In this document: positions 40,639 through 63,992 of the stretch, piece by piece
Layout of the letters: every line of letters starts with the position of its first letter
How positions within the stretch are numbered: the stretch's first letter is position 1
From: an uncultured Prevotellaceae bacterium
GTDB lineage: Bacteria; Bacteroidota; Bacteroidia; Bacteroidales; Bacteroidaceae
Length of the DNA stretch: 64,000 bases
Direction: 5' to 3'
Assembly: GCA_900319225.1 (NCBI GenBank)
Contig: ONNV01000013.1
Coordinates: forward strand, 53,249-117,248
The notes under the pieces: model-generated
The model's database searches: none
Told to the model about the DNA's origin: nothing
The model's input: only the letters and a program-made list of their open reading frames with translations
Made by a program: the position numbers and the translations under genes

Positions 40639-40654
40639 GCAATTTGAGCAAAAA

Positions 40655-40729
40655 GGGAGCCAAAGGGGACGGTTCTATTTGGCCCCATTTTTCAATTTGG
40701 GGCCAAATAGAACCGTCCCCTTTGGCTCC
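40655..40729. repeat. Palindromic repeat family A, 3' flank of the RAYT
   Basis: Perfect 32-bp arms (ggagccaaaggggacggttc...) enclose a spacer of about 11 nt (tttttcaattt type). The RAYT frame reads into it and ends at the TAG in the far arm. Confidence 0.93.
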
Positions 40730-41532
40730 TTTGGCTCCCTCGCTTTCTCCACCAGCTTCCGGCTCACTCCGGTCATCCTGGAAAGCTGCCTTATACTTGC
40801 TCCAAACTCAAGTATCTTTTGCAGCATATCATTTCTGCGATTCTTTTCAATATGCTGGATATCAGTAATATGCATATCAAATTCACTCCTCACAAACTCC
40901 CGGACGATATCGTCAGTTACCCTCACGCAAGTGTCATTATCAAAATCCAGGATACGCTGTGCCTTGGGCATCGGCTCATAAACATAACTCGCCAGTTCCT
41001 TGTAAGGAATCCTCTGCAGGACCGATGACACCGCACATACGTGTACATCCGCCTTAGGCAGATTGGTATTAAACTCCGCCCAACTGCTCCATCGGTAATC
41101 ATCCACGCTTTCTGAAATCTTTGCCGCCACAGGATTCTGGTGGATGTATCGGAAAAGAGTAATGAAATACGCAATATCATTGACCACCTCACTACGGAAC
41201 CGGTCTTGAAACAGATGCCCTATATGCTCGTATTTCTGATTAAAATAGTACGCATAAGCAACTGAAATACTTTTAATTGCGTCCGATATCCCAAGCGCCG
41301 GCGTCTCCCTGACCAGAAGATGCACATGGTTGGGCATAAGGCAATAACAGAAAATTACGATGTTAGGCGGAAGCGCATGATTTTGCTCGTCGCGCGGAAA
41401 CGCAGCCCGATGCAGAAGATCCAGAAACTTAAGGTAATCCTTGTCACACTCAAAAATATCCTGACGATTCACCCCACGCATCATAACATGGTAAATGCCG
41501 GATTCACTAGTCAATCTTGCTTTTCTACTCAT
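40675..41532 (-). CDS. REP-associated tyrosine transposase (RAYT), Y1/HUH type
   Basis: From the ATG at 41532 the protein is 285 residues. It is a Y1_Tnp domain protein: the HUH pair H69-V-H71 lies in CLMPNHVHLL, and the likely catalytic Tyr is Y129 in FRYIHQNPVAA. A C-terminal helix-turn-helix (about 235-265, ILEFGASIRQLSRMTGVSRKLVEKA) could read DNA. The last 17 residues are encoded by the flanking palindrome. RAYTs nick and move REP palindromes rather than their own gene. Near-identical family A palindromes flank this gene on both sides, the expected REPtron layout. A TATATTTG box lies 33 nt upstream. Confidence 0.95.
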   Translation of the reverse strand: MSRKARLTSESGIYHVMMRGVNRQDIFECDKDYLKFLDLLHRAAFPRDEQNHALPPNIVIFCYCLMPNHVHLLVRETPALGISDAIKSISVAYAYYFNQKYEHIGHLFQDRFRSEVVNDIAYFITLFRYIHQNPVAAKISESVDDYRWSSWAEFNTNLPKADVHVCAVSSVLQRIPYKELASYVYEPMPKAQRILDFDNDTCVRVTDDIVREFVRSEFDMHITDIQHIEKNRRNDMLQKILEFGASIRQLSRMTGVSRKLVEKAREPKEPKGTVLFGPKLKNGAK

Positions 41533-41564
41533 GGTAACTTGCAAACAATTAATTTCAACTCCAG

Positions 41565-41572
41565 CAAATATA
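41565..41572 (-). promoter_or_regulatory. -7 box for the RAYT gene
   Basis: The minus strand reads TATATTTG, 33 nt upstream of the RAYT ATG and between it and the upstream palindrome. Confidence 0.55.
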
Positions 41573-41587
41573 GCAATTTTTCGGAAA

Positions 41588-41670
41588 GGAGCCAAAGGAG
41601 CCAAAGGGGACGGTTCTGTTTGGCCCCATTTTTCAATTTGGGGCCAAACAGAACCGTCCCCTTTGGCTCC
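41588..41670. repeat. Palindromic repeat family A, 5' flank of the RAYT
   Basis: Perfect arms, with a duplicated ggagccaaa at the left tip. The spacer equals that of the 3' flank. One stem position differs from the 3' flank on both arms (A:T there, G:C here), preserving pairing. Confidence 0.93.
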
Positions 41671-41681
41671 CTCACATTTTG

Positions 41682-41689
41682 TATCTTTG
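41682..41689 (+). promoter_or_regulatory. -7 box abutting the start codon of the DNA glycosylase gene
   Basis: TATCTTTG is followed by CGGG and the ATG at 41694, the same geometry as in the TRIC gene. Confidence 0.5.
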
Positions 41690-41693
41690 CGGG

Positions 41694-42257
41694 ATGATGA
41701 TAGAGACACACCCGTTTGAGCCCTTCCTACCGGAGAACGCAAATATCCTGTTCCTGGGCAGTTTCCCGCCGCAGCCTCACCGCTGGAGCATGCCGTTTTA
41801 TTACCCCAACTGGATCAACGACTTCTGGCGCATCATGGGCCTGATACACTTCAACGATAAGGACCGGTTCTGCATCATCAAAGAAAAACGCTTCAACGAG
41901 GCCGATATACGCGACTTCTGCGCCCAAAATGGTCTGGCATTTTATGACACCGCAACTCAAATCCGACGCCTAAAAGACAACGCCTCCGATGCCTTCCTGG
42001 AGGTAAAAACTCCGACCGATATCCCCGCACTACTACAGCAAATTCCCCTCTGCAACACGATTGTCGCCACCGGCCAGAAGGCCACAGAGGTAATCGCCAG
42101 TACCTTCAACTGCCCCATTCCGCCCATCGGAAGCCACATAGAAATAAAAATAGGCAATCGCCTCATCAACTTCTGGCGAATGCCTTCAACCTCCCGGGCC
42201 TACCCGCTCCCACTAAACAAAAAAGCCGACGTCTACCGCCAGCTCTTCAAAATGTGA
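41694..42257 (+). CDS. Uracil-DNA glycosylase family protein (Mug/TDG-like)
   Basis: The 187-residue protein belongs to the uracil-DNA glycosylase superfamily. Residues NILFLGSFPP (about 15-24) form the first active-site loop, and STSRAYPL near 170-177 the minor-groove loop. It should remove uracil or mismatched bases from DNA; the exact class is uncertain. It starts at the ATG following a -7 box, and a second ATG directly follows. Its last two codons and stop (AAA ATG TGA) belong to a family B palindrome shared with the convergent MGMT gene. Confidence 0.82.
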   Translation: MMIETHPFEPFLPENANILFLGSFPPQPHRWSMPFYYPNWINDFWRIMGLIHFNDKDRFCIIKEKRFNEADIRDFCAQNGLAFYDTATQIRRLKDNASDAFLEVKTPTDIPALLQQIPLCNTIVATGQKATEVIASTFNCPIPPIGSHIEIKIGNRLINFWRMPSTSRAYPLPLNKKADVYRQLFKM

Positions 42258-43144: not shown

Positions 43145-43180
43145 AATGTGGAAAAGGGGACAGTCCCCTTTTCCACATTT
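43145..43180. repeat. Palindromic repeat family B, copy 4
   Basis: Follows the sod stop on the minus strand (ATG TAA then AATGTGG). The palindrome is aaatgtggaaaaggggacag / ctgtccccttttccacattt. Confidence 0.88.
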
Positions 43181-43755
43181 TACATTCGTTTTTCAATAAC
43201 ACTCCAGTCCACAATTTGCCACAGGGCCTCCAGATGGGCGGCACGACGGTTCTGATAATCAAGGTAGTATGCATGCTCCCAGACATCGAACGTAAGCAAC
43301 GGCTTGAGACCGCGCACAACAGGATTAGAAGCGCCAGGCTCCTGCGTAATCACGAGTGATCCATCGGCGTCACGAGACAGCCAAACCCATCCGCTGCCAA
43401 ACAAGCCAACGCCCTTGGCCACGAACTCAGCCTGGAATGCCTCCACGCTGCCCCACTGCTTGATGATCTGAGCCTTCAAACGACCACCATCGGCCAAAGC
43501 CACACCACCCTTACAGAACTGAGTAAAGTAAAGATTATGATTCAGAATCTGCCCGGCATTATTAAAAATACCGCCACTAGACTTGCACACAATCTCCTCC
43601 AGTGTCAAGCCCTCAAGCCCGCTTCCAGGCAGCAGCTTATTAAGATTATCCACATACCCCTGCAGATGCTTACCATGATGAAAACCAATAGTCCTCTCAC
43701 TAATCACGGGCTCCAGATCCTTGGCCCCGTACGGCAATGTAATAAGTTCAAACAT
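43180..43755 (-). CDS. sodB: Fe-type superoxide dismutase
   Basis: The 191-residue enzyme dismutates superoxide. Metal ligands expected from the family are H26 (FHHGKH), H73 (ILNHNLYF), and the D and H of LLTFDVWEHAYYLDYQNRR near the C-terminus. FHHGKHLQGYV and GIFNNAGQ are the classical Fe/Mn-SOD signatures. The protein has no signal peptide. A TATATTTG box lies about 30 nt upstream. Metal preference (Fe or cambialistic) cannot be settled from sequence alone; Fe is usual in the group. Confidence 0.95.
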   Translation of the reverse strand: MFELITLPYGAKDLEPVISERTIGFHHGKHLQGYVDNLNKLLPGSGLEGLTLEEIVCKSSGGIFNNAGQILNHNLYFTQFCKGGVALADGGRLKAQIIKQWGSVEAFQAEFVAKGVGLFGSGWVWLSRDADGSLVITQEPGASNPVVRGLKPLLTFDVWEHAYYLDYQNRRAAHLEALWQIVDWSVIEKRM

Positions 43756-45694: not shown

Positions 45695-45835
45695 TACTGC
45701 CATTTTCCCATCCCTATTTAATATTTTTGCAATGTTTGCAAAAAAACTAATTAGACGGAAAGAGCCCGGCACAATACCGAGCTCTCCAAATATCAAATCA
45801 TTAATTAATCCTTCCAACTTCTGGGGTTCACTTCA
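45695..45835 (-). repeat. IS3-like end repeat, copy 1
   Basis: On the minus strand this 141-bp segment starts tgaagtgaaccccagaagtt and ends at ATGGCAGTA. It recurs at 56766-56906 with few differences. The CCCC-x-AAAGTTGGA-type end resembles the terminal repeats of IS3-family elements; this is inference from memory of those ends. Confidence 0.6.
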
Positions 45836-46295: not shown

Positions 46296-46330
46296 GGTGG
46301 AAAAGGGGACTGTCCCCTTTTCCACATTTT
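46296..46330. repeat. Palindromic repeat family B, copy 6
   Basis: Begins directly at the rloB-like stop on the minus strand (AAG ATG TAA then AAATGTGG). Palindrome ggtggaaaaggggactgtcc / ggactgtccccttttccaca. Confidence 0.88.
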
Positions 46331-47019
46331 TACATCTTATTCCGCAACTTATCCAGCTCCGCCTTAACAAACCCCAATATTTCACGCCCTGGTTTACTCA
46401 TTTCAGTAGAATAAAGACTCAGCCTACCGTCCTTTTCCATCCCAAAGTTTGCCTCAGCATTAGATATCGCATCCTCTAACCGCGCCGGATCCTTCTCAAA
46501 ATTAAACCCTCCGGAAATCTCCAGATGAACAAATTCCTTAAAGGAGGCACAATCCCCGACCTTCTCTTGAGACGGCTTCTTATCATAGAAATGATAGTAC
46601 AACCAAATCTCAAAACAAGGGTTGCTTTGAGCCACATTCCATACCGGATATGGTTTCATCTCATCCCGCTGACCCTTAATGGCAGAATTCTGTAAACAAC
46701 AAAACTCCCTCAAAGGCTTAATCTTCCCCTCTTTCTCCCAAGTATCAGTGTCGATAATAAACCATACGGTATCACCATGTTCGCACTCAACAGTATACTT
46801 GCGGTCAGGACCTATCAATTCCTTTTTAGCAAGTTCCATAAGTTTAATAGGATCACTACCATCCGCAGGCGGAATAGTAATAACCTGTAAGTTCGATGAC
46901 AAACCTTCAAAGAACTTGAAATAAGCAGGCTCAGTGCCTTTCCCTTCGCAAACAAGGTAAATCTTATGAGCATCTCTTGACGGCTCATGTTTGCAGTAAT
47001 CTCTTCGTCGTGGAATCAT
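46330..47019 (-). CDS. RloB-like protein, partner of the RloA-like ATPase
   Basis: The 229-residue protein matches the RloB family. It begins with RRRDYCKHEPSRDAHKIYLV and CEGKGTEPAYFKFF (about residues 14-38), the Toprim-like glutamate signature. WFIIDTDTWEK (about 91-101) is the acidic DxD block, and SNPCFEIWLYYHF (about 131-143) is the family hallmark. Residues 163-185 (VHLEISGGFNFEKDPARLEDA) complete the domain. It follows the RloA-like ATPase gene by 1 nt. RloA/RloB pairs are related to AbiL-type abortive-infection systems and are thought to act as ATPase plus OLD/Toprim-like nuclease. Anti-phage role inferred. Confidence 0.9.
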   Translation of the reverse strand: MIPRRRDYCKHEPSRDAHKIYLVCEGKGTEPAYFKFFEGLSSNLQVITIPPADGSDPIKLMELAKKELIGPDRKYTVECEHGDTVWFIIDTDTWEKEGKIKPLREFCCLQNSAIKGQRDEMKPYPVWNVAQSNPCFEIWLYYHFYDKKPSQEKVGDCASFKEFVHLEISGGFNFEKDPARLEDAISNAEANFGMEKDGRLSLYSTEMSKPGREILGFVKAELDKLRNKM

Positions 47020-47020
47020 G

Positions 47021-48352
47021 TTACCAGTGTAAATCTTTCAGGTTAGATAGGAACGGAATACCACCATATCGGCCGTTCAAATAACCGTTCTCAATATTGG
47101 CGGTATGATGAATATTAAAGTCGCTTAGCGGGTATAATTGCGTAGCCTGCTCGGAATCCTTCTGGGCAAACCAAATCTCATCCGGGCGGAAAATATTCTG
47201 ATCCAGGAGCCCGGACTCATGCGTGGTAAAAATCAGTTGACCTGTTGCTTTAGTGCTCTCAGATATCTTACTGATGATACTCTTAATCAGTATCGGATGT
47301 ATGCTACGCTCAATCTCATCAACCACATATACTCCCCCGTTTTGTATTACCGAATAAAACAACGGCATATACTCAATAAGGCGGCGAGTACCATCCGACT
47401 CTGAAAGCATTGACATCTCAACCTCACTATTATCCAAACGCTTATGAATGGGCACAATCTTCTTAGAATATACGACATCCTGTTGACTGTCGTATACTAT
47501 GTTGTAGCTAATGGGATTAAATGGCTCAGAATACGCTTGAGGCTCACCAGGATGATCCTTAGCCTGTTTTACAACACTCTGTAATGTCGGATTACTATTA
47601 ATAACATTATCTGTCAGCACATCCTTCTTAACAACCAGCTTATCAATACCAGTCTTAAGTTCTGGGATTGTGGTATTAACCAAATCTGAGAATTGTTTGT
47701 CCGTATCCAGAAGATGTGGAACAAAGCCTGAAACATATCCCGGTTTGACTATACGTAGTTTACTAACAAACCATCTATATGCCTCAGTGATATATGACGA
47801 CTCATTTGGATAATAATAACCCATGAAAGACAGCATCAGCATATCTGGTCTTACCATCCTCTTAATAGTATCCAGATAAAGAGAATTAGTTCTCTGTGTA
47901 AAGAACTTCCCTTTCACCGTGATATCATCACCCTCCCTTTTAAAGATTGTGATATCCTTGTTCTTATTACACAATAGCAATTCCTCCAAATGTATCACAT
48001 TCTCTGAGAACTCCACATGATAATAAAACACGTTATCATTGTAATTGAACTCAATTGCTAAGCCCGATATATCCGATGCAACATTATTGTTGAATTTGAA
48101 AGGAACATCCGCCAAACTTAATCCCAGGATAGAACCGTTTCTAACCATAGTATTGAGCAATAGCAATGTATCAATCAAATTACTTTTTCCCGCCCCATTT
48201 GCGCCATATATGGCAGCCATACGTAAAGCCGTAGCATGACCACATGACACTTTATGATTGTCATGGTTATGACTCTTGCTTGACGGAAAAGTATTAAACT
48301 CCACCGCGTCCTTAAATGAGGTGATATTTTCAACAATAAAGCGCAAAATCAT
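47021..48352 (-). CDS. RloA-like AAA ATPase (ABC/SMC-like)
   Basis: The 443-residue protein is an AAA_15/AAA_21 ATPase. Walker A is GANGAGKS (50-57), the ABC-like signature region is SMLSESDGTRRLIEYMPLFY near 317-336, and Walker B plus H-loop are VYVVDEIERSIHP and FTTHESGLLD. It begins at the membrane-free MILRFIVENITSFKD, the normal start of this family. A TATATTTG box lies about 25 nt upstream. It forms an operon with the rloB-like gene and is expected to sense a phage event and license the Toprim partner. Confidence 0.9.
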   Translation of the reverse strand: MILRFIVENITSFKDAVEFNTFPSSKSHNHDNHKVSCGHATALRMAAIYGANGAGKSNLIDTLLLLNTMVRNGSILGLSLADVPFKFNNNVASDISGLAIEFNYNDNVFYYHVEFSENVIHLEELLLCNKNKDITIFKREGDDITVKGKFFTQRTNSLYLDTIKRMVRPDMLMLSFMGYYYPNESSYITEAYRWFVSKLRIVKPGYVSGFVPHLLDTDKQFSDLVNTTIPELKTGIDKLVVKKDVLTDNVINSNPTLQSVVKQAKDHPGEPQAYSEPFNPISYNIVYDSQQDVVYSKKIVPIHKRLDNSEVEMSMLSESDGTRRLIEYMPLFYSVIQNGGVYVVDEIERSIHPILIKSIISKISESTKATGQLIFTTHESGLLDQNIFRPDEIWFAQKDSEQATQLYPLSDFNIHHTANIENGYLNGRYGGIPFLSNLKDLHW

Positions 48353-48376
48353 AGCGATTCCGTTAAAAGTTCACGA

Positions 48377-48384
48377 CAAATATA
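48377..48384 (-). promoter_or_regulatory. -7 box for the rloAB-like operon
   Basis: The minus strand reads TATATTTG, 25 nt before the ATPase start. Confidence 0.55.
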
Positions 48385-48444
48385 TGGTTTTCTATGCGTT
48401 TTACAAAATTTACAAGCAATAATAACATAAACGCTACGCATACC

Positions 48445-48561
48445 CTACTCCATCAACTCTCTCTCCTGGGCCGATACGCCCGCACTCAACCTCTCGGCAT
48501 CCGCCTTAGCCAGAGCAGTCCGAATCTCCTCCAGCCGCAAACAATTCTCTTCTTTCTTCAT
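48445..48561 (-). CDS. Small ORF, 38 residues, helical and charged (possibly a gene remnant)
   Basis: Starting at ATG 48561 the product reads MKKEENCLRLEEIRTALAKA followed by DAERLSAGVSAQERELME. It is strongly helical and has no homologue I recognise. Its middle is duplicated in the composite frame at 45.5 kb, so the sequence has been copied within the island. It may be the tail of a lost gene or a real micro-protein. The rest of the 390-bp gap around it holds two gggccgatAtgccc-like words and nothing else recognisable. Confidence 0.35.
   Translation of the reverse strand: MKKEENCLRLEEIRTALAKADAERLSAGVSAQERELME
48503..48554 (-). repeat. 52-bp duplicated coding fragment, copy B
   Basis: Partner of 45489-45540. 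Confidence 0.8.
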
Positions 48562-48741
48562 ATTCGCAAACAATTGAATTATTGGTTTCACAAACTTACT
48601 CTTTTGGGCCGATATGCCCAAACTATTTCGTTGGGCCGATGATTAATATAAAGTCCATCATGCAAATAGTCTTACATAAAAAATGACGATTAAATTAAAA
48701 CAAAAAATACGTCTTATATCAATGACATCTTTATCAGACAA

Positions 48742-51700
48742 CTAACCCTCTTCTTCTGAATCGTTATTGTTGTCCTTTTCGTTTTTCTTTTCCAATACTT
48801 GTTCCATATTAATTAGTTCTATAACTTCTCTACTAGTCAACCCTTCCTCTTCTTTTTTCTTCCTCAACGCTAATATCTTTTCCAGCGATGCCTTTACCGG
48901 TTTGGGGGATTCTCTCTCTATGACCCTCATAGCCTGCAATTCGGAGACAGTACCATCAAGATTATATTTATATGCCGCAGATAAATCTTTCATGACAGAA
49001 TGAAATTCCTCGATGTAGAGTAACTTCTCGCCCAATACATAATAGAAAAGTATATAGTCATTCTTACGAAGATATTCGTCCAAAATATCTTTGCGAATAA
49101 ATAAACCTGTCATACCTTCCTCTACAGAAGGATTAATAGCTGCAATGGAATTATCGCTGTCAGCTTTTACTATACCACGGACTTCTGAACAATACAAACC
49201 TGCTTTTTCCATCAAATCAGAACATGGCATATACACTGTAGTCAAATACTCATCTTCGTTAGCAATCCCCTCCCAGTGCTCTTGTAGTTGCGCCTCATAA
49301 GCAAGCATCACATCGCATGGACAACCATTAGAAGGACGTTCCCACGATTTTACTTCCAATGCGTTTTTATATGCATCCGCCCAGGGGTAATCATTCCATA
49401 GGAATTCATACATGCCGTTTCGTTCTGGCATCCATCTTCCATAGAAATTCTTAGTCTTACACCATTTTTCGAATCCTTCAGCATCGGCTCGCTTAATAAA
49501 GACAGCATTAGTAATAACTACGGTTTCTTTATCATCTTGTTGCGCTTTGTCAAATCCTCGAAGCATCACATATGGTGTACCATCCTCCAAGGCTGCCTTA
49601 AATCTGAATACGGGTACGTAATCGTTCTTTTGTACCCATTCAATATCCTCTGCACCAATTATATCCGATGCCTCAAGACCTTTAAGTAAATGTGCCGTCT
49701 TTTTATAGCCCTCAACATCCAATGTTGGATCAAAATATGACACTTCTGAAGAATTCCAAGGATACGGATGTGGCGTAATATCCTCCTTTTTTGCTTCTTG
49801 TGAGAAATAAAAGGGGCTTTTTGTCACCTTATAGCTATCCATCAATCTGGCATTTAGCCTATACCACGCTAACCACTGAAATTTCTTTCCAATTCGTTCT
49901 TCATCATTATGTGACCGATTAACCGAATATTTTCCATTATCCAAGAATCCCAGTTTGTCATTCCATCCAAAAACATTCTTAATGTAATAAGCTAACTCTG
50001 CTTCTTCTCTATCCAAATCATCACCTTCATACTTATCAGATATCAAGTTGTACTTGAAATAATCACTACTCCTAAGTCTGTTATTATTACCTATGATATA
50101 ACGGTTGAAGTCTTCAAATCCAAAAATAGAGTTATACATTAGTTGAGAGCCGTGCTGCATACCAAAGTAGCCTCTATCAATATCCCGTTTCAAGGGTATT
50201 TCTGCTTCATCAAACGGTAAGGCCTCAAATGGTGTCTCTATCTGAGCCCACCACTTATTGTTTTCATTATCCAAATAATATGCTCGTTCAACTATCTTCA
50301 GAGACCATTGTCGCACTATCAAGTCCTGCGGCACGGTTTCTCGATGTTGATAATACGTCTTATAAACGTACTCTGCCACGGAACCTGCCAATTCCTTATT
50401 TCTAGAAGGCAACACCACACCTGCTATTGCACAGAATAGGCCTTGTAATACATATGGGTCATTGACGTTAGCAAACAATTCAAGCAACCATGTAATAGCT
50501 GCTTTGCATGAATTCAATTCCTTTCTCAAGCATCTGATAATTAACGCTCTGTACTTTGGGTGGGAAGTTGTTAGTAACCATCCTAATCTAATAAGGAAAG
50601 CTTTAATTTCATCATTTAATTCATGGGGGCTATTATCTGTATGTAGTGGAGATTGAATAATACTAGAACCATATCCCTCAAACATTCCGTTCACAAAATT
50701 CGTCCATAGCAAATCACGCTTTGCGATGGTTTCATATGACAATAAATTTTTGTGTATTGTAAGAGTTTTTGTTAATGACAATTCTTGCGGCGCACGTAGT
50801 AGCTTCAGATCCTGTTTTATACTAGGATCTAGTTCTGTCAATAAGTTTAGAACAGCATTATAGTCCAAATCAGAATTCAACAGGTAAGAAATGTACAATT
50901 CACGAAGAAATGTATTCTTTTGTAACTTTACGTTTCTTTGAACATTTGCACCCTGTTCATTCCAACAATCATACAGTGCAATAATCGCATTTTCAAATTT
51001 GTGTGAAGACACTATTGGGTTTCTTTCATAATACTTTTTCTCGCCAATCAGCCATTCTAACACATTATCTACATCTTTCTTTGGTGATAACAGTTGCTCA
51101 GCTTTATAGTAATCTCCAAGGTTCTCATATTCAAACATTACAGCTGCATCATCCTTAGTCGAACGATCCTCTAATAATAGATTTGAGGTTAGCATTGCAT
51201 TCAGCAGGTCATTACTCCATAATCTGTAAGGACATATTCTACGTGCATATTCTCGAGCTTTCTTTCGTGTGACAACATTGAAATGATTATTATTCACTGA
51301 ATAGTTTGCCAATTTCATTAGATATTTATCGGCTACATTCAATTCAAGATCTTCGTCCACCAGATGAGAAACTATTACATTTTTTTTCTCTACATATTTC
51401 TTGTAGATAATTCTTTTAGAGAACCTTGTTCGTTCTGAGTAAGACATAGAATAAAAGGTCTCACAAAAGATTTTTAAAAATAGAGGATTGCGGAAAGCCT
51501 CTATTTTTCTATTCTTGTATTCCTTCGGTATTCCATATTCCTCAAAGAACTTATTAATAGCAGTATCAACATCCTCGAAGCCCTCAACTTCGACTATTTT
51601 CCATCCGGATTTTCTTGAAGTCAGATCACTTAACTCCTGATTAAAAGGACTTCTGACGGAGACAACTAATTTGATATGATCATATTTGGATAGTTCCTTA

Positions 51701-53022
51701 CGCAATGCTCCAAGTTGATTGTTCCAATATGTACAACCCAAGCCTTCATTAAGGGCGTCTATTATGATTACAGCATAACGTCCATTTTTTTGCATCTGAA
51801 TATTTAGGTCATTAAAACTATCCTTTTCACATATAACAGTTCTAATATGTTCCGTCACAGATTCATGAGGTCTAAACTCTGTTCCAAAAAACAGATATAT
51901 ATTTGCAAGTTCTTGGTTCTTAGTCGCAAAATCACACAAGTTATGTGTCTTCCCTGACCCCGCTTTCCCTATTAGACATAAATTCTTTGTCAGGCCACCA
52001 TTGATATAGTCAAAAGCGTATCCATCACGTAAAATATTAACGTATCTGTCAAACTGTATCTCTTCGTTCCAAGAGAGGATGTTTTTAAAACGATCTTTAA
52101 ATGCATATTGGCAGAAAAGTTCCAGATATTCAATACCCTTTTTCGTTGTCAAATCAAACTTCCAACTTCCAGGCTGGTTGAATATCTTCATAATTATACT
52201 TAGTTTCTTCTTTCCTATACCATCTATAAAATCAACCAGAGTATTTGCATCTCTTGTGCTCTCGTCTATAGTTTTTTTATCAGACATTGATTTGAGACTT
52301 AATACCAGTTGATTATTATTTTGGTGTAGTCCTGGCATATAGCGGTCATGAATTGATGCCACTGCCTTTTCACACAAATCTGCGCTTCGGCCCTGACCAA
52401 AAGTTGTATTGTCTTCTTTCTGCCAGTCTTCTGCGTAGCTCACGCCCTTTGTAGATAGTAATGAAGATATCTTTGCTATTGATAGGTATCCCAATGTTTC
52501 ATTAACTTGCAGTGTCAGAATGCCAATCACACGTCCTTCAACATTGACCACCGGTGAACCAGAAAGTCCATCATAATTAAATAGTTTTAAATTATCTAAT
52601 CGTACTAATGTCCTATCATTCCAATTGCTTACCTCCAACCGATTTATAACCGACAGCGACACTAAATTGACTCCCATAGCTACTTCCTGCGGGTAACCAT
52701 ATACTGTCAGCTCCAACTTGGGCACAAAATGATCTTTTAGCAAAATAAGCCACTCTGAAACTTCAAATGATTCGTCATCAAGGATGGTTAGAATTGCCAC
52801 ATCAGCAGAGCCTCCAAGTTCCTCTGCCTTACATGTCAAAGTTTTTCCTTCTACAATGACAAAAATAGGTTCAGGAGCACTAGGATTATTAAAATGTTCC
52901 CTTACAACGTGTCTTGCTGTAACTAGTTGATTGCGCCCTATAAAGAATGCCGTTCCTTGTTCAGTGCAACATTTTACAGGAACAATCAAATTCTCTGTCA
53001 CTTTACCATTCAAATAGCTCAT
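48742..53022 (-). CDS. Trypsin-like protease fused to a STAND/NACHT-type NTPase (Avs-like)
   Basis: The 1426-residue protein opens with a serine protease domain (1-180): H38 in VTARHVV, D74 in GGSADVAIL and S154 in DGLSGSPVV form a full trypsin triad. There is no signal peptide, so it acts inside the cell. A P-loop NTPase follows: Walker A GKAGSGKT (352-359), Walker B VIIIDALNEG (418-427), sensor VVSVRSPF (453-460) and a winged-helix region near 600-650 (EYENLGDYYKAEQLL). The remaining 750 residues are an unrecognised helical sensor-like region with a charged tail. This is the domain order of anti-phage STAND proteins: effector, NTPase, sensor. Its start overlaps the MBL gene by 20 nt. Low-GC codon use contrasts with the core genes, suggesting transfer. 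Confidence 0.88.
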   Translation of the reverse strand: MSYLNGKVTENLIVPVKCCTEQGTAFFIGRNQLVTARHVVREHFNNPSAPEPIFVIVEGKTLTCKAEELGGSADVAILTILDDESFEVSEWLILLKDHFVPKLELTVYGYPQEVAMGVNLVSLSVINRLEVSNWNDRTLVRLDNLKLFNYDGLSGSPVVNVEGRVIGILTLQVNETLGYLSIAKISSLLSTKGVSYAEDWQKEDNTTFGQGRSADLCEKAVASIHDRYMPGLHQNNNQLVLSLKSMSDKKTIDESTRDANTLVDFIDGIGKKKLSIIMKIFNQPGSWKFDLTTKKGIEYLELFCQYAFKDRFKNILSWNEEIQFDRYVNILRDGYAFDYINGGLTKNLCLIGKAGSGKTHNLCDFATKNQELANIYLFFGTEFRPHESVTEHIRTVICEKDSFNDLNIQMQKNGRYAVIIIDALNEGLGCTYWNNQLGALRKELSKYDHIKLVVSVRSPFNQELSDLTSRKSGWKIVEVEGFEDVDTAINKFFEEYGIPKEYKNRKIEAFRNPLFLKIFCETFYSMSYSERTRFSKRIIYKKYVEKKNVIVSHLVDEDLELNVADKYLMKLANYSVNNNHFNVVTRKKAREYARRICPYRLWSNDLLNAMLTSNLLLEDRSTKDDAAVMFEYENLGDYYKAEQLLSPKKDVDNVLEWLIGEKKYYERNPIVSSHKFENAIIALYDCWNEQGANVQRNVKLQKNTFLRELYISYLLNSDLDYNAVLNLLTELDPSIKQDLKLLRAPQELSLTKTLTIHKNLLSYETIAKRDLLWTNFVNGMFEGYGSSIIQSPLHTDNSPHELNDEIKAFLIRLGWLLTTSHPKYRALIIRCLRKELNSCKAAITWLLELFANVNDPYVLQGLFCAIAGVVLPSRNKELAGSVAEYVYKTYYQHRETVPQDLIVRQWSLKIVERAYYLDNENNKWWAQIETPFEALPFDEAEIPLKRDIDRGYFGMQHGSQLMYNSIFGFEDFNRYIIGNNNRLRSSDYFKYNLISDKYEGDDLDREEAELAYYIKNVFGWNDKLGFLDNGKYSVNRSHNDEERIGKKFQWLAWYRLNARLMDSYKVTKSPFYFSQEAKKEDITPHPYPWNSSEVSYFDPTLDVEGYKKTAHLLKGLEASDIIGAEDIEWVQKNDYVPVFRFKAALEDGTPYVMLRGFDKAQQDDKETVVITNAVFIKRADAEGFEKWCKTKNFYGRWMPERNGMYEFLWNDYPWADAYKNALEVKSWERPSNGCPCDVMLAYEAQLQEHWEGIANEDEYLTTVYMPCSDLMEKAGLYCSEVRGIVKADSDNSIAAINPSVEEGMTGLFIRKDILDEYLRKNDYILFYYVLGEKLLYIEEFHSVMKDLSAAYKYNLDGTVSELQAMRVIERESPKPVKASLEKILALRKKKEEEGLTSREVIELINMEQVLEKKNEKDNNNDSEEEG

Positions 53023-54202
53023 ATTCTTGATCGGTGATAATGGTTTCTATCTTCAATTCTTCCTTTGTTTTCCCATCAAGATTATCCATCTTTTCGCTCA
53101 TATCCCCTTTGTGACTAAAAACAATGAGCTTTTTATCATTATCTTGTTGGCTTAATGCAATTCGCCCTAGTGTTCCCCATGTAGGGTACTCATCCTTCCT
53201 ACCACCTGGTATATAATATTTGTGTGATGTAATCAAATCCAGTAATACCTTACTATTATTTCCGTTACTACCATGATGAGAAACTTTGATAGCATCACAC
53301 ACTATTGGTTTCTCGACGTTTTTGTATTTATTACCGATGGCTTTTTCAATGGTTACTGCATAAGCATCTCCAAGCATAGCAACCCTGTGACCACCGCTTT
53401 CAAGCATAAAAGCAATTGAAGAATAATTAGTATCTGATGCATCAGTTCCTTCATCTTCTGCGGCTATTTTCACAAAAGCTGCATCAGGCTTACCAGATAT
53501 AGTAGCTGATACTTGTTTCGCTTCAAATTTCCCTTTGTATGCGTCAATCAGTCTGATTAGAAGTTCCGATATACTCTCTGAATCCTTTAAGCTATCATTC
53601 CATACTTGCATGAAATAACCATTAAACGCATCTTTGAAACGTTTCTCTATATTATCAAGAGCATCTTTAGTAGGACCAAGTAGAACTATCTTACCAAAAT
53701 CGTCTGGTAAAACAACATCTTGCAACTCGTTAGTAATATAATCCGAATTCCATGCTTTTCTCCATGCATCATTTTTAAGTATTTCACTTGCCAATGACTT
53801 ACCTTGTTCTGCACTTATTTCCTTCTTATAGTTAATCGAATCAAACTCTACTGGTAGTGCATTTTTCACCCATCTCAACACTTCACGCTGTTCTTCTGTT
53901 AATTCGACTTTTCCTACATCTTGTATACTACGGCCATAACAGTTATACCAAATTTTGTCTATCTGAAGATTGGGACAATTTTTCATCATCGATGATAAAC
54001 CATTAATATGGTCGCCATCAATATGGGTCGCCACAAGTAAATTGATATGGTTTTGCAATATATCCTCCACGTACGATTTGACAGTCGTGGTAAATTTGCC
54101 ACAGTCCACCATTATGACATATTGGTTACCATCATCCTTAACCAATCGAAGAACGTTACAATCACCTATGCCTACATCAAATGAACGAAAAAAACATTTC
54201 AT
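53003..54202 (-). CDS. Metallo-beta-lactamase-fold hydrolase of the Avs-like operon
   Basis: The 399-residue protein has the MBL metal motif H60-x-D62-x-D64-H65 (ATHIDGDHINGL), preceded by VDCG (32-35). A later AMLGDA and the ComEC-like SHHGSNGN supply further ligands. It has no signal peptide. It follows the PD-(D/E)XK-like gene by 42 nt and overlaps the protease-NTPase gene by 20 nt. AVAST type I systems pair an MBL hydrolase (Avs1a) with a trypsin-like protease and a STAND NTPase; the same three activities are adjacent here. Its own substrate is unknown. Confidence 0.9.
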   Translation of the reverse strand: MKCFFRSFDVGIGDCNVLRLVKDDGNQYVIMVDCGKFTTTVKSYVEDILQNHINLLVATHIDGDHINGLSSMMKNCPNLQIDKIWYNCYGRSIQDVGKVELTEEQREVLRWVKNALPVEFDSINYKKEISAEQGKSLASEILKNDAWRKAWNSDYITNELQDVVLPDDFGKIVLLGPTKDALDNIEKRFKDAFNGYFMQVWNDSLKDSESISELLIRLIDAYKGKFEAKQVSATISGKPDAAFVKIAAEDEGTDASDTNYSSIAFMLESGGHRVAMLGDAYAVTIEKAIGNKYKNVEKPIVCDAIKVSHHGSNGNNSKVLLDLITSHKYYIPGGRKDEYPTWGTLGRIALSQQDNDKKLIVFSHKGDMSEKMDNLDGKTKEELKIETIITDQEYELFEW

Positions 54203-54244
54203 TATTTATCTCAAAAAAAATAGCAAAACCTATATCTATCACAT

Positions 54245-55669
54245 TCACCTACCAAACACCTCTCCAAGGAAATCCACATCAGCCCTTGCTTCTGCAATAA
54301 TTTCAAAATCTGCTCTAACTATGCATGGGAATCCCATTTCTTCTCGTTGAATATTGGCATTTGTTACCAATACTCCGTATTTTCCATCCATCATTTCCGC
54401 CATCTTTCGTATAGTTCGTGGTTGCGGGTGCTTTCCTTTTGTATTACGTAAATGATAACAATAAAAAGTACGCAATTCTCCATTAATTGTTACCCTTAAT
54501 CCTCCATCATCAATCACGTCTACTCCACCATATCTTTTTTCTAAGAGATACTTTATATAGCGTTTAAAGCTACTATCCCGAATTGAATCTATATCTTTCA
54601 GAACTATGTTATCATAACCAATGCCAACACTATCAATCTGGTGCTCCGATAGAAAGCTATCAGGGTCTATCACTTTAACAACAATAATACCATCACTCTG
54701 AATAAGGTATTGGTTACCTCCTTTTTCAATCAAACATTCTTCATCAGCATCCCGGAAGGACGTAAAACCTCTGTACGACAAAAGATCTTTATTAACTCCG
54801 AGAAATAAGAACAAATTGTCTGTCGGACCATAAAGATGACCAGCATATGCTTTATTATTAAGTACTATGCTTGGAGATTGATATTGCAGTTCTTCAAACA
54901 TCAATTCCTTATCTGCCATTTCTTCATTCCCTATCTCGCCAGATAGCCTTTTTGCCATTTTTTCAAAATATAGACTCAGTATATCCTCGCCAAGGAAAGA
55001 AAAAACAGATGCATAGTGTATAGCCCTAAAAATATGTTTCTTCATATTATTAGGAAGTTCATCATTAAAGATCGGCGGATCAACAATCTTCATCTCACTG
55101 CTATGTGTTTCATTCAGCAATGAGGCCGTTGCCACCTTAAGATCACCCTGCATCGCATTCTTTTGTTCCACAGCTTCATTCAGTTGGAGTTTAGATTTGG
55201 TCTTATAGATACTTCCCTTAGCCTCCACTAGTAATGTCCTGTTGTCTCTCAACAAGCATCTCCAATCAGGCCGTCGTTTAGGTACATTTATTATCTTGCC
55301 TATAGTGGATGGTTGTACGTCAAACAATTCAGTTATTACCGCTACTGACAAACCTATTCCCATGAGTTCTGATACTTCTGTCAGCATTTCACTACCAAAC
55401 TGGTTACGGGTTTCTGTTATTTTCAGCTTTAAATCCGGTGTATCAGATAACCGTTCAAGTAGATAGCCATAATCCATCAGCGATGCCATCCAGGAAGAAT
55501 TAATCCTTTTTGGTTGCACGCTGCCCAAGCATTTAAGCAAGTCAAATAATCTAATGCTTATTCGAGCATGGTTTTGTCCTCTATAACATGGCTTTACGTT
55601 TTGCCTTACGACATTATCCCATGTTATATTAATAGTTGGCTTATCAAACAGTTTTAAAGGACTAATCAT
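54245..55669 (-). CDS. PD-(D/E)XK-like protein, first gene of the Avs-like operon
   Basis: From the ATG at 55669 the protein is 474 residues. I do not recognise the family. In the longer reading (from 55690) residues 141-160 show P-D-W, then 13 residues, then E156-A-K158 (LLVEAKGS), a PD-(D/E)XK nuclease-like core. An upstream helix with E105 (EMLTEVSELMG) fits the fold. The C-terminal half (about 290-470) is strand-rich and unassigned. A consensus -7 box lies 8 nt upstream of the ATG and overlaps the longer start, which rules that start out. The next two genes follow at 42 nt and by overlap, so it probably belongs to the same defence unit. Confidence 0.7.
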   Translation of the reverse strand: MISPLKLFDKPTINITWDNVVRQNVKPCYRGQNHARISIRLFDLLKCLGSVQPKRINSSWMASLMDYGYLLERLSDTPDLKLKITETRNQFGSEMLTEVSELMGIGLSVAVITELFDVQPSTIGKIINVPKRRPDWRCLLRDNRTLLVEAKGSIYKTKSKLQLNEAVEQKNAMQGDLKVATASLLNETHSSEMKIVDPPIFNDELPNNMKKHIFRAIHYASVFSFLGEDILSLYFEKMAKRLSGEIGNEEMADKELMFEELQYQSPSIVLNNKAYAGHLYGPTDNLFLFLGVNKDLLSYRGFTSFRDADEECLIEKGGNQYLIQSDGIIVVKVIDPDSFLSEHQIDSVGIGYDNIVLKDIDSIRDSSFKRYIKYLLEKRYGGVDVIDDGGLRVTINGELRTFYCYHLRNTKGKHPQPRTIRKMAEMMDGKYGVLVTNANIQREEMGFPCIVRADFEIIAEARADVDFLGEVFGR

Positions 55670-55676
55670 AACTTCA

Positions 55677-55684
55677 CAAAAATA
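55677..55684 (-). promoter_or_regulatory. -7 box abutting the start of the Avs-like operon
   Basis: The minus strand reads TATTTTTG, 7 nt before the ATG at 55669. The predicted transcript would be leaderless or nearly so. Confidence 0.5.
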
Positions 55685-55690
55685 TAACAA

Positions 55691-56178
55691 TTCCGCACCA
55701 CCACCTTGTAATATGAAGAATTTCTATTATTCATCTCAATTAATCCCCCACCTCCCCATATTGCTTCAGACAGCTTATCTTTTGGAGCATTTTATCTCAA
55801 GTCTACTAATCAAGTCCACCAATCCAATTCTCCCAATAACCAAAAACTAAAAGGTACCCAAAGAACTCCCCCCTTTGGCGTCCCCAAAACCGATCCCTAA
55901 CTAGCCAGCAAAATCTCCCTAACTAGCCAGCAAAAAAACAGCACCGAATCCCCCACAAGATCCGATGCAAAAAAAAGGTGCCAAACTGAACCGTCCCTAA
56001 TGTCCCCAAAACAAACTGTAGCGCCGTAGCAACTGTAGCAAACGCTACACTGCTACAGTGCTACAGTTAAAAAAACCATAAAACAAAAAAGGGAATAACC
56101 CTAACCGAGTTACCCCTTATAAAACGCTGTCAACCAAATCAGGAAATAAGGTGCCAAAAAGAACCGTCCCCGATGGCA
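55691..56178. other. Gene-free stretch with repeats and degenerate family A halves
   Basis: No gene is seen. It holds two direct copies of ccctaactagccagcaaaa (about 55906-55935). Three degenerate half-copies of family A lie near 55852, 55979 and 56150 (ggtgccaaaaagaaccgtcc in the last). There is also a nested inverted repeat at 56014 and a weak stem-loop near 56089-56122. Confidence 0.5.
56014..56068. repeat. Nested inverted repeat of aactgtagc / gctacagtt
   Basis: The word aactgtagc occurs twice on the left. Gctacagt and gctacagtt occur on the right around a small aaac loop, so two alternative stems can form. A T-poor flank makes a simple terminator less likely. Confidence 0.65.
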
Positions 56179-56582
56179 CTACCTAGGAGCATACCCCCCA
56201 TCCTTAGCCTCCAAAATAGTACTACGCTCCAAAACCAACACCGAATGCCAAGCCCCCAAAGGAACCTGAATTCCGAACTGCCCCTCGCGTGGACAAACTC
56301 TAAACCTAGCCACCTCAGCAAAGCAACTCTCGTCCGCCGCAACCTTGCCGTCGTGAACCGGCCCGCCCGCATCCATATTAGGCAGCTCCTCATAGAACAC
56401 CCAGTCCAGGCACCCCTCCAGGCAAACCACCGTCTCGCTGGTCTTGAGGTGCCGATGAATAGGCACACGCGTCCCCACCTCCAGAGCGTTCAGCATCCGC
56501 TGGATGGTATCAGCCGGCGTAGTCCGCAGATTAAGTGCCGATGCTCGATACCACCAATATAATCCGATGAATCATTAGCCAT
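56179..56582 (-). pseudogene. WbuC cupin, frameshifted copy
   Basis: A strong ribosome site (aaaggaga) precedes ATG 56582 (MANDSSDYIGG). That frame soon fails, and the cupin continues in another frame as ALNLRTTPADTIQRMLNALE and then VGTRVPIHRHLKTSETVVCL. The C-terminal cupin box (GAWHSVLVLE) is intact. Compared with the intact cupin at 60308, residues before SPRLRMNY are replaced. One frameshift near 56530-56575 explains the data. A degenerate family A half-copy abuts its stop. Confidence 0.75.
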
Positions 56583-56765: not shown

Positions 56766-56906
56766 TACTGCCATTTCCCCATCCCTATTTAATATTTTTG
56801 CAATGTTTGCAAAAAACTAATTAGACGAACAAGAGCCCGACACAAGACCGAGCTCACCAAATATCAAATCATTAATTAATCCGTCCAACTTTTGGGGTTC
56901 ACTTCA
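56766..56906 (-). repeat. IS3-like end repeat, copy 2
   Basis: Second copy of the 141-bp segment at 45695. The two diverge immediately outside it. Confidence 0.6.
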
Positions 56907-56955: not shown

Positions 56956-57753
56956 TCAATATATAGTCTTAATAACTTTACGCACACCTGAAACAAGATC
57001 TTCTAAATCCCCTTTTGTAGGCTCAGGTGTCTTATCATGATCACACTTATTCCGAAGATCTCCTAAAAACTGAATATGGCGCCATTGAGCAACATCTATA
57101 ACATCACTATTCTTTAGAAGATCATTCAAGTCATTTATGGTTGGCGTTTTTTTCGGAATCTTTATGGTATGTGATGCAGCAACCATTTTAAGATGTTTTT
57201 CAAGCACAACGCCACAAATGGCACCTGCACCTCGTAAAAAGCCTTTATTAGCAAGCATCATTGCTTCATCAATTTCCGAATCAAACAAATCCGATTCTAT
57301 CAACTGTTTTATTTCAAATAGAGCAGAATCAAGTCTATCTGATAAAGAACAGACAATCTGATACTGCAAATCTAGTTTGTTCCGGATTAAACCATAATTA
57401 TCTTCTTTTGAATAAGAAACGAGGGTAATGCCAATTATATAGTCCTCAATACAATAATTCGTGAGGTCTTTTTCTTTTTTTACGTTCGCATGATATGCCG
57501 AGACAAAGTCTGTTACTCTATCTGGTAATAACTGTCTTATTGCTGCAAGTGAGGCATTATACCACTTCTGATATTTGTCTTTAAACGAAGCTTCTTTTAT
57601 TTTCTTGACTTTATCCTCCGATATGCCTTCAAGTTCACTATCTGTGTAATGGATATGCATCTCGTTTCTAAGTCCACATTTAAGGAACAATCCATCTTTA
57701 CACAAATCATTTATCTCCTTTCTATACTTTTCTAAATTTGATTCCATACTCAT
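56956..57753 (-). CDS. HEPN-like protein with an R-x4-H motif
   Basis: The 265-residue protein is largely helical and not assigned with certainty. The C-terminal third (about 165-265) resembles HEPN/DUF4145-type domains. It has MLANKGFLRGAGAICGVVLE near 166-185 and R234-N-K-C-D-H239, which fits the R-x4-6-H RNase motif of HEPN toxins. The N-terminal half is charged and unrecognised. No antitoxin-like gene adjoins it directly. It has low GC like the Avs-like operon and stands alone, so a defence or toxin role is an inference. An ATG 6 nt downstream is an alternative start. Confidence 0.65.
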   Translation of the reverse strand: MSMESNLEKYRKEINDLCKDGLFLKCGLRNEMHIHYTDSELEGISEDKVKKIKEASFKDKYQKWYNASLAAIRQLLPDRVTDFVSAYHANVKKEKDLTNYCIEDYIIGITLVSYSKEDNYGLIRNKLDLQYQIVCSLSDRLDSALFEIKQLIESDLFDSEIDEAMMLANKGFLRGAGAICGVVLEKHLKMVAASHTIKIPKKTPTINDLNDLLKNSDVIDVAQWRHIQFLGDLRNKCDHDKTPEPTKGDLEDLVSGVRKVIKTIY

Positions 57754-58438: not shown

Positions 58439-59890
58439 TCACCACCTCCTAAACCTCAGCATCACCCGCGAGTTCTCCAACACCATCCGCCCACAATCCG
58501 GATAACTCACCCTAAAAGTAGTAACCAAACTATCCAACCCACAATACCGGAGCCCACCAATCAGCCCGCCATCATCATACATAGAGAAATCAAGCCTAAT
58601 GGAATCGCCCACCTCAGTAGTTACGCCGTGCCGGCTGAAACCGCCAGTCAAATCCTCAATAAGCACAATGTGACGCGCAAATCCAAACATAGTATTGTCC
58701 ACCTCCTCACATGAGCAAGAGTCGCCGCGAAAGTTTACACCATGCTTATAATCAATCCTGTCAAGACGCCAATAATAATCCAGCCTGTCATCCGGGAATG
58801 CACGTTCACATGAGCCGATGCACATAACAAGCGCCACAAGCATTAGGGCCGATAAAAACCAAGCCACCTTTTTCCGCTCCACCTCCTTAAGCGGTGCGCC
58901 ATAGCAACCCCAATGCTGTGTAGTTGTTGCCAACAACCGGTAATCTATGCATTGAGTTATGCCGCCCTCAACGCCCAAATGAAACATCTGCAAGCGGTTG
59001 CTTCTAAAAATATCACCCCCATAATACACAGGCGATATCAGCACCGGGTTGCCGATAGCATAGCCATGATGAGTATACGATTCATATACGCTATGGTTAT
59101 ACATCCCATCGCGTCCATCCACCTCTTCTATCACAGCCATACCCTCTGAATTATGTGCCACACTGTGGCAAATTGAACCGCTCTGTCCACGGGTATTCAT
59201 AAACTCAAACACAACACCACGTACAGCCCTTATATTCTTAGGCGCATTCACCTCAATACCAAACAAGCCATCAAACCAGTTGCGCCTGAATCCATAAAAG
59301 ATAAAATCTTTCTCTCCTGCCGTATTGTTTTTGTACTCTATTCCCAGCATTGATGAGTGGTCCTCATAAAAATGTTCGTAGTAAGCACCAATATGCCAGT
59401 CACTCACTGAATAATCCAGATTCAGATGCCAACTTCCCAGGTTGTCACCATCATCTGTTCCCTGCTGTTCTATGTGATGGAACGGGAACAACGCAGTCCA
59501 ATAGGCGGCCGCATCCGATGGCATTTGCCTTTCATTTTCTCCCCAGTAACGCACACCACCAAACAGATTATTCATCTCCAATCCCAGCGTAACCAGCAAC
59601 GGGAAACGCTCCTCATCGCCAAACCGTACAAATAATGACTTACTATGAAACAGCACCCCTTGGGCATATGTTCCGCCACCATTCTCCCTACGCCAGGAAT
59701 CATCCGTCAAACGCCCATAGCCCAAATGCCCCTTAATAGAAAACCAACTACCCAGAATAGGAATTCTAACATAATCAGGTATTCCAACTCTTAACTCAGG
59801 TATAGGCTTACTGTTACCGGAATAAGTAAGAGCACCAGTACTAAGATAACGGTTCTTGTCACTCCAACGCTCTTTCATGCCGATGGACAT
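58439..59890 (-). CDS. Wzi-like capsule assembly fragment fused to a lipoprotein
   Basis: The 483-codon frame joins two unrelated parts. Residues 1-340 are a Wzi-type outer-membrane capsule assembly protein lacking its N- and C-termini (ELRVGIPDYVRIPILGSWFS; NRLQMFHLGVEGGITQCIDY). After YGAPLKEVERK the frame runs directly into KVAWFLSALMLVALVMCIGS and a C-type lipobox: a small lipoprotein that exists separately at 63564. The lost Wzi C-terminus, starting at the same YGAPLKEV, lies at 60700-60962. The true Wzi start (signal peptide MKKNIVLISVLLVAFLNINA at 60104) is cut off by stops and a frameshift. The lipoprotein half may still be translated from its own GTG near 58867. Confidence 0.75.
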   Translation of the reverse strand: MSIGMKERWSDKNRYLSTGALTYSGNSKPIPELRVGIPDYVRIPILGSWFSIKGHLGYGRLTDDSWRRENGGGTYAQGVLFHSKSLFVRFGDEERFPLLVTLGLEMNNLFGGVRYWGENERQMPSDAAAYWTALFPFHHIEQQGTDDGDNLGSWHLNLDYSVSDWHIGAYYEHFYEDHSSMLGIEYKNNTAGEKDFIFYGFRRNWFDGLFGIEVNAPKNIRAVRGVVFEFMNTRGQSGSICHSVAHNSEGMAVIEEVDGRDGMYNHSVYESYTHHGYAIGNPVLISPVYYGGDIFRSNRLQMFHLGVEGGITQCIDYRLLATTTQHWGCYGAPLKEVERKKVAWFLSALMLVALVMCIGSCERAFPDDRLDYYWRLDRIDYKHGVNFRGDSCSCEEVDNTMFGFARHIVLIEDLTGGFSRHGVTTEVGDSIRLDFSMYDDGGLIGGLRYCGLDSLVTTFRVSYPDCGRMVLENSRVMLRFRRW

Positions 59891-61044: not shown

Positions 61045-61410
61045 TCACCTCCCGTACGCCCCATCCTTAGCCTCAAAAATAGTAGAAGCCTCATACACCT
61101 CAATTGAGTGCCAAGCTCCCTGAGGCACCTGGATACCAAACACGCCGTTCCTGGGGCAAACCCTAAACCGGGCGGTCTCCACAAACTGAGTCTCGTCCGC
61201 AGCCGTCTCGCCATCATGCACAGGGCCTCCTGTATCCACGTCAGGCATTTCATCATAAAACACCCAGTCCAGACACCCCTCCAAACAAACCACCGTCTCG
61301 CTAGTCTTTAGGTGCAGATGAATAGGCACACGCGTCCCCACCTCCAGAGCGTTCAGCATCCGCTGGCTGGTATCATCCGGCGTAGCCCGCAAATTAAGGA
61401 CCGATGTCCG
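61045..61410 (-). pseudogene. WbuC cupin, start-less copy
   Basis: The frame reads LNLRATPDDTSQRMLNALEV then GTRVPIHLHLKTSETVVCL and ends at GAWHSIEVYEAS. It is nearly the same as the frameshifted copy at 56179. No start codon lies upstream in frame before the DUF2971 gene. ATG 61323 or nearby could give a truncated product, but the first cupin strand would be missing. Confidence 0.7.
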
Positions 61411-63563: not shown

Positions 63564-63992
63564 TCACCACTTCCTAAACCGCAGTGACGCTCGGGAGTTC
63601 TCAAGCACCATCCGCTGTCGGTCTGGATAAGATAGCTTAAACGTAGTGACCAAACTATCCAATCCACAATAACGGAGGCCGCCGATCAACCCGTCATCAT
63701 CATACATAGAGTAATCCAAGCTAATAGAATCGCTGAACTCAGTAGTTACGCCGTGTCGGCTAAAGCCGCGGGACAAATCTTCAATAAGCACAATGTGACG
63801 AGCAAATCCAAACATAGTGTTCTCTATGTTTTCTGATGAGCAAGAATCACCGCGAAAGTTCACACCGTCTTTATACTCTATCCTATCAAGTCGCCAGTAG
63901 AAATCCAGCCTGTCATCCGGGAATGCACGTTCACATGAGCCGATGCACATAACAAGCGCCACAAGCATTAGGGCCGATAAAAACCAAGCCAC
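63564..63992 (-). CDS. Small capsule-region lipoprotein, second copy (upstream part runs off the window)
   Basis: The 142-residue protein starts at GTG 63992 and has a lipoprotein signal with lipobox CIGSC (Cys at 20). The rest is a lipocalin-like beta domain (RLDRIEYKDGVNFRGDSCS; VLIEDLSRGFSRHGVTTE). It is a paralogue of the lipoprotein half of the fusion at 58439, roughly 80 percent identical by eye. The first 95 nt of the two copies are identical, up to the window edge. Whether this copy is also fused to a Wzi-like frame cannot be seen. Confidence 0.75.
   Translation of the reverse strand: MAWFLSALMLVALVMCIGSCERAFPDDRLDFYWRLDRIEYKDGVNFRGDSCSSENIENTMFGFARHIVLIEDLSRGFSRHGVTTEFSDSISLDYSMYDDDGLIGGLRYCGLDSLVTTFKLSYPDRQRMVLENSRASLRFRKW

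Follow-up and report, generated by a model that had tools for sequence, protein, structure and literature searches.

We were interested whether three adjacent minus-strand genes in an uncultured Prevotellaceae bacterium form a single defence system and, if so, of which kind. They lie in a stretch of 64,000 nucleotides (GenBank assembly GCA_900319225.1, contig ONNV01000013.1, positions 53,249 to 117,248 of the forward strand), which is called the window here and is numbered from its first letter. A preliminary description of this DNA had proposed one operon of a trypsin-like protease fused to a STAND NTPase, a metallo-beta-lactamase (MBL) protein and, upstream of both, a PD-(D/E)XK-like protein. 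Open reading frame (ORF) calling returned all three genes as described, with the 20-nucleotide overlap of the MBL and trypsin-STAND genes (Table 1). From the evidence below, the first two genes very probably constitute an abortive defence system of AVAST type (antiviral ATPases/NTPases of the STAND superfamily), in which a sensor would activate a protease and the protease an MBL DNase, the upstream gene being separate. The kind of system is known, and the pair represents a divergent variant of it with an Avs2-type core; what is new is the Bacteroidales clade that carries this core, together with a PD-(D/E)XK-like family that has no name yet.

Domain architecture of the large protein

The large protein carries a Trypsin_2 domain at residues 23-168 (Pfam, E 4e-11), with the catalytic triad at H38 in TARHV, D74 in ADVAI and S154 in DGLSGSP, and a P-loop from about residue 345, where a NACHT match (E 1.5e-4) stays under the Pfam cut-off. 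When it was aligned with the proteins of 10 loci selected for their protease match, H38, D74 and S154 were kept in all 11 proteins, as was Walker A (G352-T359); Walker B was present in all ten proteins that could be compared, that of locus L061 stopping at the contig end. A complete protease triad and both Walker motifs in one chain of 1426 residues, as first described, were therefore confirmed. Comparison with PADLOC led to Avs2 (1.3e-117), with model PDLC02162 spanning residues 345-1360 (4e-106); the NCBIfam Avs2 model matched with 1e-105 and 355 bits, and a sequence search of the PDB gave Avs2 9o4e (E 1e-39, best stretch 343-983). Judged by these matches, the STAND part is of Avs2 type and not of Avs1 type. 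A plain Avs1 assignment was dropped, because the PADLOC match to Avs1b is confined to residues 14-210 and the core matches Avs2 in both PADLOC and NCBIfam. The C-terminal region, covered by the same PDLC02162 match, is probably the sensor, in agreement with the earlier suggestion of a phage-protein sensor.

The MBL protein and its gate residues

The mechanism of MBL and trypsin partners is known from a 2025 paper (Tuck et al., PMC12799240), in which the MBL proteins of Hachiman and Avs1 are described as pro-nucleases whose active site appears to be covered by two insertions. Both insertions have a conserved isoleucine, and the trypsin domain of the partner cuts behind it; both cuts were mapped in HamM, one cleavage product was observed for Avs1a, and the MBL enzyme released in Hachiman was shown to degrade DNA in vitro. 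A ComEC nuclease domain serves as comparator there, with the same two-loop layout given for HamM and Avs1a.

The MBL protein of the window matches LmuA (2.3e-55) and Avs1a (6.4e-46) in PADLOC and Avs1a in NCBIfam (2.4e-57, 194 bits), and is 25-28% identical to four Avs1a proteins. A scan of genome contigs with an MBL alignment gave 197 stretches, of which 141 were confirmed, and the best 80 of these loci are referred to as the 80 MBL loci. In an alignment of 30 rows, consisting of the window protein and 29 of these loci hand-picked for spread, T59, H60, D62, D64 and H65 as well as D279, H309 and H310 were invariant, and H60, D62, D64, H65, D279, H309 and H310 are the probable metal-site residues. 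The HxDxDH motif reported for the gene overlapping the trypsin-STAND gene was thus found in every row. Two further columns correspond to the gates. At gate 1 (I129) the residue was isoleucine in 25 rows, valine in 4 and serine in 1, and at gate 2 (V231) isoleucine in 24, valine in 5 and methionine in 1, so that each gate column holds isoleucine or valine in 29 of 30 rows. Small alignments had pointed to I235 as gate 2, which was dropped when the close relatives and the 30-row alignment placed it at V231. An AlphaFold2 model of the protein (predicted local distance difference test (pLDDT) 80.9, predicted template modelling score 0.82) has both gates in flexible loops with pLDDT below 50 (residues 117-129 and 226-236), and its best PDB match by Foldseek is the MBL domain of ComEC (9ic4, E 4.5e-9). 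In this model, I129 and V231 fit the published pattern, in which each of two disordered insertions contains a conserved gate residue.

Table 1. Features of the operon and its upstream neighbour in the window (layout of the large protein in residues).
Feature	Position	Strand	Evidence
Predicted MBL-fold pro-nuclease, Avs1a-like, 399 aa	53003..54202	minus	Family matches, gate columns, AlphaFold2, ComEC fold match
Trypsin-like protease fused to Avs2-type STAND NTPase, 1426 aa	48742..53022	minus	Trypsin_2, PADLOC/NCBIfam Avs2, PDB Avs2 9o4e
Overlap of MBL and trypsin-STAND genes, 20 nt	53003..53022	minus	ORF coordinates
Orphan PD-(D/E)XK-like protein; neighbour gene	54245..55690	minus	Two remote relatives with common D135, E149, K151, G152
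Layout of the large protein	protease ~14-210; NACHT from ~345; Walker A 352-359; Walker B ~418-426; C-terminal probable sensor to ~1360

Conservation of the gene pair

Among the 80 MBL loci, the same pair of an MBL gene and a trypsin-Avs2-type gene was present in five other Bacteroidales loci (L055-L059), with a gene overlap of exactly 20 nucleotides in all five; in a sixth close relative, L060, the MBL gene itself is cut off. Four more loci (L079, L080, L120 and L121, the last by the match of one search alone) combine an MBL gene with a trypsin on an Avs2-type core, and a gene matching the protease domain follows directly downstream in 46 of the 80 (phmmer, E 0.01). A search of 395 genomes of the phylum gave matches to the MBL protein in 21 (E 0.001) and to the large protein in 8 (E 1e-15); both counts contain the own genome. 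With phmmer, neither the large protein nor the upstream gene was matched in 11 MBL neighbourhoods taken from the phylum genomes, so that the pair has few close copies in this sample.

A tree of the region from NACHT to the C-terminus was calculated from 19 rows, ten with trypsin and nine Avs2-like comparators, with no Avs1b. The six Bacteroidales trypsin proteins formed one clade on a long branch, and a single group of all ten trypsin rows was rejected (approximately unbiased test, p = 8e-6), a group that was picked after the tree had been viewed and that carries a long-branch warning. In locus L047 (9100-14968) the gene after the MBL gene encodes a protein with an Avs4 core (620 bits), the N-terminus of which matches the LmuA model common to the protease parts of L079 and L080. 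As the trypsin rows do not form one group and the core of L047 is that of Avs4, it appears that several phage-protein sensors have acquired the same effector pair. In the Bacteroidales loci the nuclease module gated by a protease is combined with a receptor core of Avs2 type, and the presence of the module on several Avs cores supports the view of receptor and effector as interchangeable parts. Trypsin-bearing loci with differing cores would be a test set for the comparison of sensors.

Comparison with known defence systems

In the type 1 systems of four named plasmids (L037-L040), avs1a is followed by a gene of 5.7-5.8 kb, annotated as avs1b in two and as serine protease in two, and then by a small avs1c of 82-94 codons. 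Avs1b, with about 1,930 residues, is already a protease-STAND protein, and the fusion of protease and NTPase is therefore not new, contrary to the preliminary description, in which AVAST type I had separate protease and STAND proteins. Its proposal of an AVAST variant holds in so far as the operon is related to AVAST and encodes a protease-NTPase fusion; what sets the window apart is not this fusion, and the core is of Avs2 type. With type 1 the window shares the MBL gene directly upstream of the trypsin-STAND gene, the gate residues and the metal motif, whereas it differs in the Avs2-type STAND core, in the length of the fusion protein and in the low identity of its MBL protein to Avs1a noted above. 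At the place of Avs1c (48352-48742, minus strand), judged by length alone, only ORFs of 25-58 codons were found, compared with 82-94 residues in the four plasmids.

With type 2 (Avs2), the window shares the STAND core and the C-terminal region (residues 345-1360), whereas its N-terminus is a trypsin-like protease, a separate MBL gene is present, and its 355 bits compare with an NCBIfam cut-off of 1000. In the nine Avs2-like comparators the N-terminus was Mrr-like by eye in seven, different in one and cut in one. A gated MBL pro-nuclease with a partner protease is also common to Hachiman (HamMAB), Lamassu, DRT and caspase-nuclease (Canu) systems, according to PMC12799240; in these, however, the protease is attached to another sensor, or a caspase takes the place of trypsin. 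A literature search found no title on the trypsin-Avs2 clade of Bacteroidales and PMC12799240 as the sole title on the module, the tree of which might already include the clade.

The upstream PD-(D/E)XK-like gene

The ORF upstream of the MBL gene encodes 481 residues from a TTG codon or 474 from the ATG at 55669, the latter being the likelier start, and is separated from the MBL gene on the same strand by 42 nucleotides. The single promoter-like site proposed for all three genes found no support in positions 53900-56150, where a sigma-70 scan of both strands gave 8 matches compared with 7.5 +/- 2.6 in shuffled sequence and a Bacteroidetes-type promoter pattern gave none (4 in the whole window). 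Searches of PADLOC, Pfam, NCBIfam and PHROGs returned nothing for the protein, the PDB gave no match with an E below 0.1, and a single-sequence structure model reached a pLDDT of 33.8. Among the 80 MBL loci, the six nearest relatives included, no match to the gene was obtained (phmmer, E 0.01; in six other loci less than 1.5 kb lies upstream of the MBL match), nor was one in nine genomes of related loci at E 0.1, a set that shows little as it contains no positive control. When 393 genomes from the order and 201 from the family were searched at E 0.001, its own genome alone matched. Single-sequence scans of genome contigs, viral contigs, plasmids and phages with this gene gained nothing, and neither did scans with its relative.

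At E 0.1, 14 of the 395 phylum genomes matched, the own genome included. Of three matches inspected individually, one (G408, 2.4e-4), adjoining genes for Cas3, Cas7, Cas6 and TM1802, was retained as a relative. The other two were taken as chance, G765 (6.9e-4), with 79 residues outside the E-x-K region of what is by eye a secreted protein, and G647, as were the ten remaining matches (E 0.007 to 0.093). A two-row profile matched four of 198 genomes, adding G568 (8.1e-4) and G484 (0.0015); the relative in G568, found by the profile alone, directly follows HsdR- and HsdM-like genes. D135, E149, K151, G152, D197 and P199 are kept in all three members (window, G408 and G568), which bears out the P-D...E-A-K core first described (D135...E149-A-K151). 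A model built from the three found no further members among 1507 ORFs of the examined loci. By sequence comparison, these matches support a small family of PD-(D/E)XK-like proteins encoded among defence genes. As the 80 MBL loci gave no match to it within the limits above and its relatives stand beside CRISPR-Cas and restriction-modification genes, the upstream gene is probably an independent defence-island gene, and its tie to the Avs pair is one of proximity, nothing more. A fixed trio, with the nuclease-like protein as an added component, was accordingly dropped: the MBL/trypsin-STAND pair recurs elsewhere, and the upstream gene was never found beside it in the loci searched.

Proposed action and alternative explanations

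The trypsin-STAND sensor probably switches on its partner, a DNA-cutting MBL enzyme. Avs2 is activated by the large subunit of phage terminase. At rest, the large protein of the window would be a STAND ATPase, the Avs2-like C-terminal region of which may bind a conserved phage protein, by analogy with Avs2 most likely the large terminase subunit. Binding and ATP would lead to oligomerisation of the large protein, as in published relatives, and thereby to activation of the N-terminal trypsin-like proteases. Their target would be the MBL protein, with cleavage behind I129, V231 or both, in two loops that would cover its active site, and the freed enzyme would degrade cellular and phage DNA, cleavage and DNase activity both being modelled on the relatives, so that the infected cell would die or stop before phage release. 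As triggers for Avs1-Avs4, terminase, portal and Ksap1 are named in PMC12931631.

Several observations weigh against this scheme. In 34 of the 80 MBL loci no adjacent trypsin gene was found by the phmmer test (L060, for one, is cut), so that membership in the MBL family alone is no proof of mechanism, and both proteins fall under the NCBIfam equivalog cut-offs (420 for Avs1a, 1000 for Avs2), which leaves the trigger uncertain. The window protein has valine at gate 2, while the published cleavage occurs behind isoleucine; residues 92-97 and 211-213 of the MBL model have pLDDT below 50 just as the gates do; and the fold match to ComEC is partial (template modelling score 0.42 by query and 0.59 by target, root-mean-square deviation 8.0). 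The protease might instead kill by cutting other cellular or phage proteins, with the MBL protein acting as a signal hydrolase and not as a DNase. MBL folds have many activities, and after ComEC the next PDB fold matches are phosphorylcholine esterase (ranks 2-4) and sulfatase (ranks 5-6). As the ComEC domain remains the best fold, the gate residues are conserved and homologous pairs act by cleavage and DNA degradation (PMC12799240), we consider this explanation very improbable.

A different question is whether the PD-(D/E)XK-like protein belongs to the system after all, as a second effector or regulator of a three-component operon gained in this lineage only. The shared strand with its 42-nucleotide gap and the conserved D...E-x-K core would agree with this, and a YhcG-type PD-(D/E)XK gene upstream in L061 and a DUF1016_N fragment in L058 indicate that other nuclease genes also occur at that position. 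The genes upstream of the relatives are varied, however (IrrE-like with DUF4411, HipA, TetR on the other strand, DUF1016_N and, by eye, a glycosyltransferase), both relatives of the gene itself stand beside CRISPR-Cas or restriction-modification genes, the loci and genomes searched lack it within the limits given above, and co-transcription has no promoter support; such an operon is therefore unlikely. That the gene founds an unnamed PD-(D/E)XK-like defence family, with members also next to genes of CRISPR-Cas and of type I-like restriction, and works here with the protease-gated Avs2-type system as a second DNase or brake seems quite improbable as a whole; if true, one receptor would have two nuclease outputs.

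Genomic surroundings

The two-gene operon is adjoined by an AbiLi/AbiLii-like pair (AAA ATPase and RloB, 46330-48352), and beyond the upstream gene lie a DUF6016 gene and a HEPN-like gene (56956-57753, under the Pfam cut-off). A direct repeat of 142 bp, 94% identical at 45695-45835 and 56766-56906, flanks the segment from the AbiL-like pair through the Avs operon to the orphan gene; with exactly two copies in the 2.53-Mb assembly (about 85% complete), the repeats are possible borders of an inserted defence segment. The superoxide dismutase gene at 43180-43755 is present in four of ten same-genus genomes, where the 19.9-kb stretches around it gave no match to the Avs pair or the upstream gene. 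Past 43.8 kb these four share with the window only short stretches, a DUF6016 gene (L161) and a distant AbiL-like pair (L159, 24-27%), and the region thus varies within the genus.

An IS200-like Y1 transposase ORF (40653-41742) has 77-nucleotide hairpin repeats overlapping both its called ends, and related GGGGAC/GTCCCC palindromes occur at 42240, 42623, 43134, 45527 and 46283, which resembles a RAYT/REP arrangement. Two genes are duplicated in the window, in each case with the first copy named by Pfam: DUF6016 (56179-56496 and 61045-61392, 77% DNA similarity over 300 nucleotides) and a Wzi/lipocalin-like gene (58439-59890 and 63564-63992, 81% over 300 nucleotides).

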